A DNA stretch of 21,064 nt from a virus, in the IMG/VR virus record IMGVR_UViG_3300031660_000070, positions 1 to 21,064 of that record; one strand, written 5' to 3'. The translations under genes and the position numbers were made by a program. Each line of letters begins with the position of its first letter. The stretch's first letter is position 1. Positions 11,635-18,842 of the stretch are shown piece by piece. The notes beneath the pieces were generated by a model. The model was not told the DNA's origin and searched no databases. It was given only the letters and a program-made list of their open reading frames with translations.

Positions 11635-13515
11635 CTACGCTATCTCGCAGGCTCCACCCGTACAGGCTAATTCCTGCGAACCGATGGTGTTGTCCTCTGT
11701 TTCAAAGTCACCTAGGTCTTCCCAGTTAACCCCTTTAGGCATAGCAGCTAATAGCTCCTCATACTTGTCGGGGGTGATGTCTTCGTAAGGCGCTTGCTGA
11801 TAAATATGCTCTGATACAGGCAATAGGCTAATGCCACTGCATATATCGAAGTTATCCCATATCCATTGTGCAACCTGTAAGAACTCGTCCTCAGTATAGT
11901 ATACAGTAATACTAGGCTTATGTTCACACCAAAAGTTCTGATATGCTTTCCATAACCGTAGCTGCTGCATAGCACCCACTTCAGGTACAGTCATACAATC
12001 TTCAGGAGCTTTAACCGGGAAGCTGAACACTAGGTTAGCCTCAGAAGCAACGTCCTGCTCTACAGGGAAGCCCTTCTCTTGCATGAAGAGTGCCAACGGA
12101 TCTTTCTTATCCGAACGTACACGTCTAATGTAATGGTTAGAGAAGCGAGGATGGATACCCGAGGCAGAGTCTACAAGTTGTGACACAGTACCACTAGGCT
12201 TAACACAAGTAATAGCGGTAGACTGATTAACGCCTATCCTATGTGCCCAATCCTTGTTAGTAGCGATAGCCACTTCTTTAATCTCATTCAACCATGGCTC
12301 TAGTAGAGGAGACTGATCGTCACCCAAGATCTTATGATCCATGATGCCTGTCATACTCAAGCCTAGTAAGGCCTCTTCTTCGGTATTACGCTGCCAGATC
12401 TTTCGTACATAACGGAAGTCTGTCAAGGTAGATTGTAATGTTCCAATGATAGCAGCAAGCCTACACTTCTCTTTCAAAGTATCTAATGTATCATTTTCGC
12501 GTATCACTATTTCACTTAAATTGCACGTCTGGTTAGATCGTAAGATTATCTCGCTGCACGGATTTGTCCCGAACTCTTGGTCTGGATCACGTCGTCCGTT
12601 CCTAGCTGCAATCTTCTGAGCAGCAATGCGGCTAAAGATACCACGCTCACCTGCCTTGGATTCATACATGGTCTGCATTTCATTCAAGAACGATTGGAAG
12701 TCAGGCTTCTCTGTATATGCCACACTGTTGTTAGCTAGAGCACGTTGTCCTTCAGTACGCCACCATTCGCCTGACTTGGCCTTAGCCATACGTTGATCAG
12801 ATAGATTAGATAGGCTGATAAGGGCAGAGCGTCTAACACCACCAACAACTACGATATCTGCAATCTTACATACGATATCATGGCACTCGATGCTGGTTAG
12901 CTTACGTCCCTTTGCCCGGATGAATAACTCAATACAGAAGTTAAACAGATCAATCAAAGGCTCTGGGCCACTGGCTCGACCACCAAAGGTTTTAAGACGT
13001 TCACCTGCACCCCGGATACGGCTGGTATCCCACTTAGGGATGTTGCCTGCATAGAGCATAGCGATCAACTCACGGAAGGCGGAGGCCCATCCAATCTTGC
13101 TATCGCGTACTACAATCACACTGTCTGTGTGGGTAAGGCTCTCTGAAATCTCGGGTAGCTTGCTGATGAAGTTACGCTCTACACTGAAGCCTACACCAGT
13201 GCCACACATAAGAACGTACATTAGCTCGTCAAAGCTACGGGGTGAATCAATGTGTAAGTAACTACAATTGAATCCAGCCATGTTATCTTTGTCTAGGGCA
13301 GCACCTGCTGTCATCATGCAACGCATAGAAGGCATTACTTCTAGGTCATGGATAGCGGTATATAACTCGCCTGCTGTAGTTTCATCTAACTGGCCCCGAT
13401 TAACCCAGAAGGAGACGTATCGCTGTACGGTCTCTTCCCACGTCTCACGGCGTTTCTCTTCGGGCATCCACCTAGCGTAGCGGGACTTGTGTATAAACTG
13501 CTGATACTGATCCAT
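11635..13515 (-). CDS. nrdJ: Adenosylcobalamin-dependent (class II) ribonucleotide reductase, monomeric type
   Basis: The 626-residue enzyme reduces ribonucleotides to deoxyribonucleotides with a B12-derived radical. Catalytic residues are visible: C84 (FNCSY) and C331 (NQTCNL) as the redox pair; N318, C320 and E322 in NPCSE as the thiyl-radical site; and C618/C623 in the C-terminal CTGGAC shuttle. The spacings C320-C331 (11) and C618-C623 (5) equal those of the Lactobacillus leichmannii monomeric enzyme (C408-C419, C731-C736). Also visible are MCGTGVGFSVER (103-114) and GGVRRSA (225-231). It is about 110 residues shorter than that enzyme and no ATP-cone is evident. AGGAG lies 10 nt before the ATG. 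It sits 13 nt downstream of dNMP kinase, forming a dNTP-supply pair. B12 must come from the host. Confidence 0.96.
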   Translation of the reverse strand: MDQYQQFIHKSRYARWMPEEKRRETWEETVQRYVSFWVNRGQLDETTAGELYTAIHDLEVMPSMRCMMTAGAALDKDNMAGFNCSYLHIDSPRSFDELMYVLMCGTGVGFSVERNFISKLPEISESLTHTDSVIVVRDSKIGWASAFRELIAMLYAGNIPKWDTSRIRGAGERLKTFGGRASGPEPLIDLFNFCIELFIRAKGRKLTSIECHDIVCKIADIVVVGGVRRSALISLSNLSDQRMAKAKSGEWWRTEGQRALANNSVAYTEKPDFQSFLNEMQTMYESKAGERGIFSRIAAQKIAARNGRRDPDQEFGTNPCSEIILRSNQTCNLSEIVIRENDTLDTLKEKCRLAAIIGTLQSTLTDFRYVRKIWQRNTEEEALLGLSMTGIMDHKILGDDQSPLLEPWLNEIKEVAIATNKDWAHRIGVNQSTAITCVKPSGTVSQLVDSASGIHPRFSNHYIRRVRSDKKDPLALFMQEKGFPVEQDVASEANLVFSFPVKAPEDCMTVPEVGAMQQLRLWKAYQNFWCEHKPSITVYYTEDEFLQVAQWIWDNFDICSGISLLPVSEHIYQQAPYEDITPDKYEELLAAMPKGVNWEDLGDFETEDNTIGSQELACTGGACEIA

Positions 13516-15790: not shown

Positions 15791-16645
15791 TTAACCTACG
15801 TCAGCTAAATCATCTTCTAAGTCACCCGGGATAGTACTCATGGCAAGCATGGCGCTATCAGATAGCTGGTTGCTATACATCGCTTTATCGTAGGCTTCTT
15901 GGATCTTCTTGTTCTCAGCAGATACCATACCGTGCATGACCTTAACAGTTTCAAAAACCTGATCGTCCATACCTACAGCATTGTTTAAATCTGGTGAGAA
16001 GTTCATGATCCACCATACGTTACCACCAGAACCTTTGGTCTTGGTAGAGGACATGTTCAACCAGTACTCATGCATCTTACGACCACGCGGGATCTTCTTG
16101 ATGAACTCGTCTTCAAACGGATTGAAGTTACTACCCTTGAGCATGATTACCACGGGTAGGTTATCAATCGTTACTTCTTCACCTTCAGCATTCTTACCAG
16201 TGTAGCTTACTAAGCCACGAACCTGACGGAAACACTTGATGTTGGCATACTTAGCCTGAGTATCCTTATCCATTTCTTTAAGGGCATTCGAGGTAGGCTT
16301 ACCACAACGGATAGTACCCATCATGTCACGGGCTTCTTGGCGAAGCTGCGGGATCATTAAGGTCTTGTTGCGTACCTTGTTCTCTTCAGGGTCGTAGTGC
16401 AGCCATTGAAACAGTTGGCTTAGTGGACGGAAGTTAACCTTCTTGGCGAACACAGAATCCCCGTCGGTACCCTTAACAAAGAACTGACCACGCGGAAGTT
16501 CCTGACCTTGGTCATTCTCTTCTTGGTAGTTGATCTTTAACTCAGGTAATCGATCAGAAGAATCGCCAGCAGAGCCACCCCCCATACCCATAGCGGCGGC
16601 AATCTCCATCTGTTCTGATTTACTAATAGTGGCAAGTTCATTCAT
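15791..16645 (-). CDS. Probable ssDNA-binding protein
   Basis: This 284-residue protein has no motif I can name with certainty. Three things suggest an SSB-like role: it lies between DNA polymerase and exonuclease; it has a Gly-rich N-terminal linker (MGMGGGSAG, 19-27) followed by a beta-rich middle with many aromatic and basic residues (for example RGQFFVKG, NFRPLSQLFQWLHY); and it ends in an acidic tail (GDLEDDLADVG), a feature of phage and bacterial SSBs such as T7 gp2.5. The ATG at 16645 has CGGAG about 6 nt upstream. A possible sigma70-like promoter and a perfect palindrome lie just upstream, suggesting separate high expression. The function is inference; existence of the gene is well supported. 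Confidence 0.7.
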   Translation of the reverse strand: MNELATISKSEQMEIAAAMGMGGGSAGDSSDRLPELKINYQEENDQGQELPRGQFFVKGTDGDSVFAKKVNFRPLSQLFQWLHYDPEENKVRNKTLMIPQLRQEARDMMGTIRCGKPTSNALKEMDKDTQAKYANIKCFRQVRGLVSYTGKNAEGEEVTIDNLPVVIMLKGSNFNPFEDEFIKKIPRGRKMHEYWLNMSSTKTKGSGGNVWWIMNFSPDLNNAVGMDDQVFETVKVMHGMVSAENKKIQEAYDKAMYSNQLSDSAMLAMSTIPGDLEDDLADVG

Positions 16646-16724: not shown

Positions 16725-18842
16725 TCACAATTCAATCTGATCCATCCAGTTAGCTCCCTGCGTTATTTCTATGTCGAGGGGTAACACTAGGTCATAGTCA
16801 AACCGTTCTTTAACTTCGCTAGGCAACTCAGCCATAGCCCAGTATAGGGCCGCCTTAACCTGTTCATCTTCATCAGGATGTACGTCAACTACAATCGAGT
16901 CGTGTACCGTGATGATCAGCCTAGACTTCAGGTTGTCTGACTTGAATCGTTTGTATGCACGGATGCAGGATAGTACTACTAGGTCTGCTGTAGCAAAGGA
17001 CTGACACGGGTAGTTAACGATAGCTGTGGCATTAGTCACTCGGCCATTACCTAAGCGCCTAGTACCGGGAAAGTAGAACTCCCGTCCACTTGGAATCCTA
17101 ACCAAGCCATCTTTAAGTACGCCGTCCATTAAAGTACGGTGCCACTTAGCTAGGCCTGTGTAGATCTTGAAGTACTCGTTGAAGTACGCTTGGATGTGTG
17201 GTGGTTCATTGGCACCCATGCCGCCATAGAGAGGGGCGAAGGTGTAGGCCTTAGCATTCTGACGCATGGTCTTGTCCACGTCGGCTACGTCGCACTGGTT
17301 GATGATAGCTGCTGTCTGCTTGTGTACATCGAAGCCGCCCAGTACCTGTTCAATAACGGTAGGGCATCTAGATAGCTCACCAGCAACACGGAACTCTAGG
17401 CCACTGAAGTCAGCCTCCATGATACTACCACCCTCAAACCGGGACACTACAGCTCTACGCACAGGGAACTTGTGGCCCTTGGGTATGTTCTGGAAGTTAG
17501 GCTTGCTGGAGGATAGTCTACCTGTACGAGTAATGCACTGGTTGAACTGGGCGTGTAGTAGACCACTCTCTCGGGTAGAGGCATCTATGTTCTTAATAAA
17601 GGAGTCTAGGTAAGTACTGATCGCATTCAGCCTACTTGTATTTGTAAGGAACTCTATCGCCTTTAGGTTACCCTTAGCCTCTGCCTGTGCAATCAGCTTC
17701 TGTATGGTCATTTTGTCGGTCTTAAAGCCATTGATGCTGGCATCCGATGCTTGGGTAGGGACTAGCTTTAGTCCTGCCACTTGGCCTGTCTCAGTGAGTG
17801 TATAGCCTCTGCCTTCACAAGTAACACACTTGGACAGGTTCTTGTACATGTTCCCATCTACCTTGCGCTTGTGGATGGTTCCTCTGCCTGCACAGATGTC
17901 ACAATGTTGGGCTATGGTACGCATGACCCGCCGGGTAGACTTCCGTACTGTGTTAGTGAACTGACTAGCATTCATACGAGGGGTAGGGAGGGGCTTACCT
18001 CTAGCGTTCATCCCTATGTTGAATGCACCCTTGTGGTAGTTACGATCCTTTACTGTACGCGAGTAAACAACCGCTGTCATATCCACACCAGAGTTAAGGT
18101 TAATAGGTGTATCACCCATTACGTCCGAGACGATAGCATCTAGGTCTTTCTCTAGCTGTGCCTTCTCTAGAAGGAACTCGTCCCTTACAGCGTGTAGGGT
18201 AGTCTTATCAATAGCTATGCCGTTACGCTCTATCTCTACTAAGAACAGCAGCATTTCATTCATTAAAGTGAAGACAGGGAGTAAGCCTCTGTTCGACTCT
18301 TTTAGAAGATCTTTCTGTTGGGCTAGGTAGATCTCTGCCGTTGATAGAACATCGGCGTCAGCATATTCAATCACGGTCTCCAAGGGCATAGCCTCGAACC
18401 CTGTACCTGACTTGAATAGGTCGTCCACTAGCTCTGACTTCTTACGGGTTACATCCCGACGGATAGCAGTGGCCTTCAGGGATAGCTCTGCTCTCTGACC
18501 CCTTGCGAAGATGTACTCACCAATCATAGTACAGTACACGTCTTTTGGTATACTGAAATTAGATTCTAATAAGTAGGACACGTCGAATTTAGCATTGTGA
18601 CACACTATTACTTCAGCCCGACTAAGGTCATGCTTCATTTGATCACTGCAATCAGCATCAATGCCATTCTTTTCGTTGTGTGCGTAGATTGCACGTTGGG
18701 CAGGGCCAAGTACCCCGTCCTCAATCATGCGCCAGTGAGACGAGACCATCTTGTTCTTAGGATTGTAAGGGCTATTGTCTTTGCTCTTATCTTCCCCGAA
18801 CTGAACGGTGGTCTCTAAGTCTAATACTATTACTGTGGTCAT
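16725..18842 (-). CDS. DNA polymerase, family A, with 3'-5' exonuclease and zinc-binding insertion
   Basis: The 705-residue replicative polymerase has exonuclease motifs D8/E10 (DLETT), D87 (HNAKFD) and Y160...D164 (YADAD). Polymerase motifs are TGRLSSSKPNFQNIP (440-454), motif A MEADFSGLE with D478, motif B R527...K531...F535...Y539-G540, and motif C VHDS with H647/D648. F535 aligns with E. coli Pol I Phe762, the residue that varies (F/Y/L) among viral polymerases. Between the exonuclease and palm, C314-x2-C317 and C339-x2-C342, each followed by x-G-R-G, make a DnaJ-type zinc site. No 5'-3' exonuclease domain is present, as in T7 gp5. GAGGG lies 6 nt before the ATG. Helicase-primase genes must lie outside the window. 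Confidence 0.97.
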   Translation of the reverse strand: MTTVIVLDLETTVQFGEDKSKDNSPYNPKNKMVSSHWRMIEDGVLGPAQRAIYAHNEKNGIDADCSDQMKHDLSRAEVIVCHNAKFDVSYLLESNFSIPKDVYCTMIGEYIFARGQRAELSLKATAIRRDVTRKKSELVDDLFKSGTGFEAMPLETVIEYADADVLSTAEIYLAQQKDLLKESNRGLLPVFTLMNEMLLFLVEIERNGIAIDKTTLHAVRDEFLLEKAQLEKDLDAIVSDVMGDTPINLNSGVDMTAVVYSRTVKDRNYHKGAFNIGMNARGKPLPTPRMNASQFTNTVRKSTRRVMRTIAQHCDICAGRGTIHKRKVDGNMYKNLSKCVTCEGRGYTLTETGQVAGLKLVPTQASDASINGFKTDKMTIQKLIAQAEAKGNLKAIEFLTNTSRLNAISTYLDSFIKNIDASTRESGLLHAQFNQCITRTGRLSSSKPNFQNIPKGHKFPVRRAVVSRFEGGSIMEADFSGLEFRVAGELSRCPTVIEQVLGGFDVHKQTAAIINQCDVADVDKTMRQNAKAYTFAPLYGGMGANEPPHIQAYFNEYFKIYTGLAKWHRTLMDGVLKDGLVRIPSGREFYFPGTRRLGNGRVTNATAIVNYPCQSFATADLVVLSCIRAYKRFKSDNLKSRLIITVHDSIVVDVHPDEDEQVKAALYWAMAELPSEVKERFDYDLVLPLDIEITQGANWMDQIEL

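Follow-up and report, generated by a model that had tools for sequence, protein, structure and literature searches.

A DnaJ-type zinc module predicted at the thumb tip of an HMO-2011-type phage DNA polymerase, and its possible role as a basic clamp

What is a cysteine-rich module resembling part of DnaJ doing inside a family A DNA polymerase, where in the enzyme does it sit, and is it the counterpart of the thioredoxin-binding loop of T7 gp5? These questions are raised by a reading frame in the window analysed here, the whole 21,064-nucleotide stretch of the viral record IMGVR_UViG_3300031660_000070. Two C-x2-C-x-G-R-G motifs had been predicted at C314/C317 and C339/C342; both are present in the translated frame, the interval originally given for the module (17780-17910) encloses them (17903-17880 and 17828-17805), and the segment INLNSG, expected at about residues 247-252, is found at 247-252. 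The features discussed below are collected in Table 1.

Table 1. Features of the polymerase gene and its neighbour (window coordinates; residue numbers are those of the polymerase).
Feature	Position	Strand	Basis
polA, family A DNA polymerase, 705 aa, HMO-2011 type	16725..18842	-	Pfam; AF2 model
3'-5' exonuclease domain, Pfam stretch, residues 78-177	18312..18611	-	PF01612, E 2.9e-6
Thumb helix H, residues 213-242	18117..18206	-	DSSP on AF2 model
Thumb helix H1, residues 252-260, after INLNSG	18063..18089	-	AF2 model; profile alignment
115-aa thumb insertion bearing the finger, between H1 and H2, residues 262-376	17715..18059	-	AF2 model; alignments
Conserved basic hairpin, residues 308-338	17829..17921	-	74-sequence alignment
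First CxxCxGxG motif, CDICAGRG (C314/C317), residues 314-321	17880..17903	-	translation; alignment
Second CxxCxGxG motif, CVTCEGRG (C339/C342), residues 339-346	17805..17828	-	translation; alignment
Thumb helix H2, residues 377-390	17673..17714	-	AF2 model
Palm, fingers and distal thumb, PF00476 positions 55-381	16740..17735	-	Pfam
Next gene, 284 aa, unnamed family, acidic C-terminal tail DLEDDLADVG	15791..16645	-	91 homologues

Judged on its polymerase, the product of this reading frame is a member of the HMO-2011-type phage PolA proteins. Pfam and the predicted fold agree on a family A polymerase with a 3'-5' exonuclease domain: the DNA_pol_A match reaches E 3e-54, PF00476 and PF01612 both exceed their cut-offs, and the AF2 model (mean pLDDT 92.7, pTM 0.86, 74 sequences) finds the Bacillus and Taq Pol I enzymes as its top PDB matches (Z about 35), superposing on Bacillus Pol I with Z 35.6 and an rmsd of 2.9 over 549 residues. 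Ahead of the polymerase core lies a partial DnaJ domain with two CXXCXGXG motifs, the feature by which the HMO-2011 type has been defined (PMC6918029, PMC9038755). The nearest relative is that of Roseobacter phage CRP-3, at 59.5% identity, then come CRP-235, CRP-212 and CRP-738, and further away Pelagibacter phage HTVC033P and, at 38% identity, Puniceispirillum phage HMO-2011. Compared with the known members as a whole (HMO-2011, CRP-1, -2, -3, -207, -212, -235, -345, -603 and -738, and HTVC033P), the protein belongs to the same family at 36-60% identity, carries the same cysteine-rich module, and shows no essential difference; it lies nearest the CRP-3 branch. The order of genes around polA is similar where it was compared, and the viral record here is 21 kb long as against 53-55 kb for these relatives.

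The architecture of a polymerase with a cysteine module is thus already known as a published hallmark of the HMO-2011 group. Three papers treat the module as a feature and group criterion, one of them counting 2433 such polymerases (PMC9038755, PMC6918029, PMC8528129), and PF00684 (DnaJ_CXXCXGXG) is annotated on the polymerase in the GenBank record of HMO-2011. Phages of this type, of which the finger is the marker, rank among the dominant groups of marine viruses; in one virome data set their polymerases account for as much as 19.7% of the family A polymerases (PMC9038755). The thumb placement reached here is more precise than the published one, which puts the module between the exonuclease and polymerase domains, and no published test of the function of the finger was found in the literature.

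The pair of motifs does not look like an accident of composition, because even a single CxxCxGxG arose in just 13 of 20,000 shuffles of the polymerase and the real protein has two. PF00684 matches residues 311-350 of the whole protein with E 1.3e-4 and 22.6 bits, and the insert alone with 27.3 bits, both below the gathering score of 32.7; the same model finds the insert in all 74 aligned relatives at E <= 0.1, and the best match of the insert's sequence profile falls on the two central motifs of E. coli DnaJ (E 0.0054). Folded alone, the insert reaches a pLDDT of 90.8, and its best PDB match is DnaJA2 (Foldseek probability 1.00, rmsd 2.5, 41 columns), followed by anti-TRAP and BSD2, with the zinc module of UvrA further down. 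Owing to the small size of the module the Foldseek E-values are poor, and VIA-align gives a Z of 4.4 at best. The comparison mostly covered insert residues 39-102, and no fold match was seen to the N-terminal part of the insert. Taken together, sequence matches and predicted fold bear out the original prediction of a DnaJ-type two-motif zinc module in a family A polymerase, and the four cysteines probably hold one zinc.

While the insert is, in prediction, a DnaJ-type zinc module, the polymerase itself is not a DnaJ, since it lacks the J-domain and has half the number of motifs. The central domain of DnaJ (PF00684) shares the CxxCxGxG pair and the predicted fold, but it has four motifs and two zinc sites, against two motifs and one presumed zinc here. 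Half-DnaJ-type or similar zinc modules also occur in unrelated proteins (UvrA, anti-TRAP, BSD2 and lambda Q), although the proteins that carry them, and their functions, are different and the likeness in structure is weak (VIA Z 2 to 3.6). It could be argued from the likeness to two central motifs of DnaJ that the module brings the DnaK/DnaJ machinery of the host to replication, a role hinted at in PMC9038755 from the parallel of phage lambda. With no J-domain among the Pfam matches up to E 1, and with two of the four motifs, such a co-chaperone role appears very improbable.

Where, then, does the module sit? For the thumb helices we take the letters H, H1, H2 and I from an alignment with E. 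coli Pol I and from their customary names. In the AF2 model the finger, with a pLDDT of 85-95, is sited between H1 and H2, and a fourth helix at residues 393-422 corresponds to I, lettered by the alignment. When the 115-residue insert was removed before profile alignment with the T7 and E. coli enzymes, residues up to 261 paired with T7 gp5 up to 348 and with E. coli Pol I up to 592. The paired T7 segment is FNPSSRDHIQKKLQE, beginning at T7 residue 334 (FNPSS), and comes directly after the thioredoxin-binding loop, whose boundaries we take to be 258-333. Since the insert-free alignment pairs residue 261 with T7 348, the T7 loop lies upstream and the finger downstream of the H1-equivalent helix. 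The Pfam polymerase model independently points the same way: its match takes up again at profile position 29 for T7 and 55 for the present protein, while that to E. coli Pol I begins at position 3. A first MAFFT overlay had put the finger at the site of the thioredoxin loop; it was rejected, as the FNPSS helix of T7 and the FNLSS helix of E. coli clearly correspond and the insert-free alignment places H1 between the two loops. The claim that the module lies downstream of the T7 site and is a different insertion therefore agrees with the AF2 model, the insert-free profile alignment and the Pfam break points, and the insert-free alignment does not bring the module to the T7 site. On this modelling and alignment, the module sits inside the polymerase thumb, adjoining the T7 loop and distinct from it, one connection later; this exact placement, at the thumb tip, adds to the published account. 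The two insertions are alike in being thumb insertions of phage family A polymerases with a basic surface and a possible role as clamp and tail dock. They differ in site and in cysteines: the T7 loop, which lacks a CxxC, joins H to H1 ahead of FNPSS, whereas the insert described here lies between H1 and H2 and has four cysteines.

The H1-H2 connection varies in length among other polymerases. In the alignment it is short in E. coli, VpV262 and StenR, and runs to about 70 cysteine-free residues in ICP2, MEP402, ctOsX528 and an Alcaligenes phage. The part of the insert that precedes the finger (FNIG...GKPL..PRM) resembles the extension of these four, and for this reason the finger may be a later graft on a pre-existing H1-H2 extension.

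Once present, the cysteines appear to have been kept without exception. The relatives gathered from IMG/VR comprised 106 polymerase reading frames, in 101 of which an automatic count found exactly two CxxC stretches, spaced 25 residues apart in 87 and 37 apart in 14; two more (L061 and L074) have the pair plus an additional CxxC elsewhere, and three are fragments that lack part of the module. All four cysteines are retained in 103 of the 103 relatives in which both motifs are readable, and likewise in seven more loci from metagenome or single-cell bins, several of them copies of one contig. No close homologue lacking the cysteines, which would have spoken against the original prediction, was found. 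The motif glycines vary slightly among relatives while the cysteines are constant; the invariant positions of the 74-sequence alignment include C314, C317, C339 and C342 as well as G330, G346 and G357.

Outside the group the finger was not encountered. A search over 50,697 phage records gave 12 good matches, all HMO-2011-type, the remainder having E >= 1 and being non-polymerases where annotated. No CxxC occurs in the N-terminal halves of 80 split polymerases of the neighbouring lineage, or in the distant genome matches L213-L215, and a scan using the polymerase half of the Alcaligenes phage returned no matches. When a tree was built from the core of exonuclease and thumb, omitting the finger, all 21 finger-bearing sequences grouped together, with a support of 0.98 on the separating branch of the unrooted tree and of 0.79 attached after re-rooting. 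This core tree is compatible with one acquisition of the finger.

The split family A polymerases deserve a brief description of their own. They are encoded in two reading frames (L040, 498-2609; L041, 501-2625; L037, 789-2704; L034, 253-2346; and loci L123-L202), the first holding the exonuclease and thumb and ending soon after TGRLSS..PN.QN, the second the palm; in L040 and L041 a small reading frame lies between the halves. The N-terminal frames measure 362-404 residues in all 80 IMG/VR loci, a uniformity from which the break seems to recur at one place.

Across the alignment of 74, the positions of R308, K325, K327, K334 and K338 are lysine or arginine at frequencies of 91-100%, and five of the 22 columns with at least 90% K/R fall in this one 35-residue stretch (Fisher p 0.003, a modest test, as the stretch was chosen after inspection). 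The net charge of the finger is +2 to +14 in all 74 sequences, and the insert has no conserved acidic column among them. In 10 of the 74 (L051, L054, L055, L059, L060, L062, L065, L066, L069 and L070) the tip of the hairpin is extended by 12 residues rich in lysine and arginine, so that the first cysteines of the two motifs are 37 rather than 25 residues apart; CRP-738 is built likewise. It is conceivable that the zinc staple simply stabilises an enlarged thumb loop and has no special partner, as would suit both the place of the cysteines among the most constant positions and the cysteine-free extension of about 70 residues in the same H1-H2 loop of neighbouring phages, which indicates that growth of this loop is tolerated. 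Such a purely structural role leaves the conserved lysine and arginine pattern and the basic hairpin extensions unexplained, and we consider it rather unlikely.

Instead, we tentatively favour, at somewhat short of an even chance, a zinc-stapled basic hairpin of the thumb that grips duplex DNA and slows dissociation, and that may in addition dock the neighbouring gene product by its acidic tail. The original suggestion of a processivity or partner-binding clamp would, on this view, be a reasonable guess. The insertion between H1 and H2 carries a half-DnaJ zinc module, in which one zinc on four cysteines would staple the basic beta-hairpin of the thumb tip. Behind the active site, this hairpin would touch the backbone of newly synthesised duplex and thereby act as an intrinsic thumb clamp, doing from a neighbouring site the job of the T7 thioredoxin-binding loop, without thioredoxin, and its basic patch might also take the acidic tail of the neighbouring product, as happens in T7. 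Precedents come from the T7 loop: its exposed basic residues bound the DNA backbone in simulation (PMC5984650), and a basic patch on it is the binding site for the helicase's acidic tail (PMC5997990). It is to be noted that the AF2 model holds neither DNA nor zinc, so that the DNA contact is a prediction by analogy; zinc occupancy, contact with DNA, processivity and partner docking are all properties that we infer for the finger. Moreover, a half-DnaJ module need not touch DNA at all, given that the C-terminal zinc finger of UvrA is described, in a 2006 title among the references of PMC5053424, as regulating damage-specific binding and not binding DNA directly.

The gene next to polA gives this proposal its second element. 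Its family, of about 280 residues, adjoins polA in HMO-2011-type phages, and the last 15 residues carry a net acidic charge of at least 4 in 87% of 91 homologues, as against 5% of background reading frames. The product has no Pfam family, no clear PHROG and no PDB match, and no relation to any known SSB is detectable. Acidic tails have been described as typical of the SSBs of prokaryotes and phages (PMC5686142), and the product is a candidate for an unrecognised ssDNA-binding or partner protein. The helicase encoded here has a neutral tail and lacks the acidic one known from T7.

DnaJ-type fingers are mostly protein-binding, and one may ask whether the finger serves as a dock only, binding a replisome protein (most simply the next-gene product, a possible SSB, or else the helicase or primase) with no grip on DNA. 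The conserved basic patch would suit such a role, as would the presence of anti-TRAP and BSD2 among the fold matches and the conservation of the linked acidic-tailed gene in finger-bearing phages. That gene was not detected at the 80 split-polymerase loci, but this absence may reflect different genomes with limited flanks; acidic tails are, besides, common to SSBs generally, and an interaction with the finger is a candidate one. We regard docking alone as unlikely, if a serious contender. The basic thumb clamp, possibly combined with tail docking, is favoured because of the conserved lysines and arginines, the T7 analogies, the acidic-tailed neighbour and the helicase devoid of an acidic tail. 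In its fuller form the proposal describes a thumb-tip clamp that evolved independently, in which a zinc-stapled basic hairpin, in the loop beside that of T7, would make the enzyme processive with no protein borrowed from the host and would bind the acidic tail of an unrecognised SSB of the phage, the product of the adjacent gene; for this fuller version our expectation is lower, and we put it forward as a doubtful possibility.

The combination of a thumb-tip site, a basic face and an acidic-tailed neighbour leads to a testable hypothesis, that of a possible second solution to processivity beside that of T7 and thioredoxin, and the finger could interest polymerase engineers. Elsewhere in the window, a ribonucleotide reductase with a match to the B12-dependent (class II) insertion domain is encoded on the minus strand (11635-13515), and HMO-2011 likewise encodes an adenosylcobalamin-dependent ribonucleotide reductase. 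Finally, an open-ended reading frame on the plus strand (2-1804) contains many SFDDQGNLI-like repeats.
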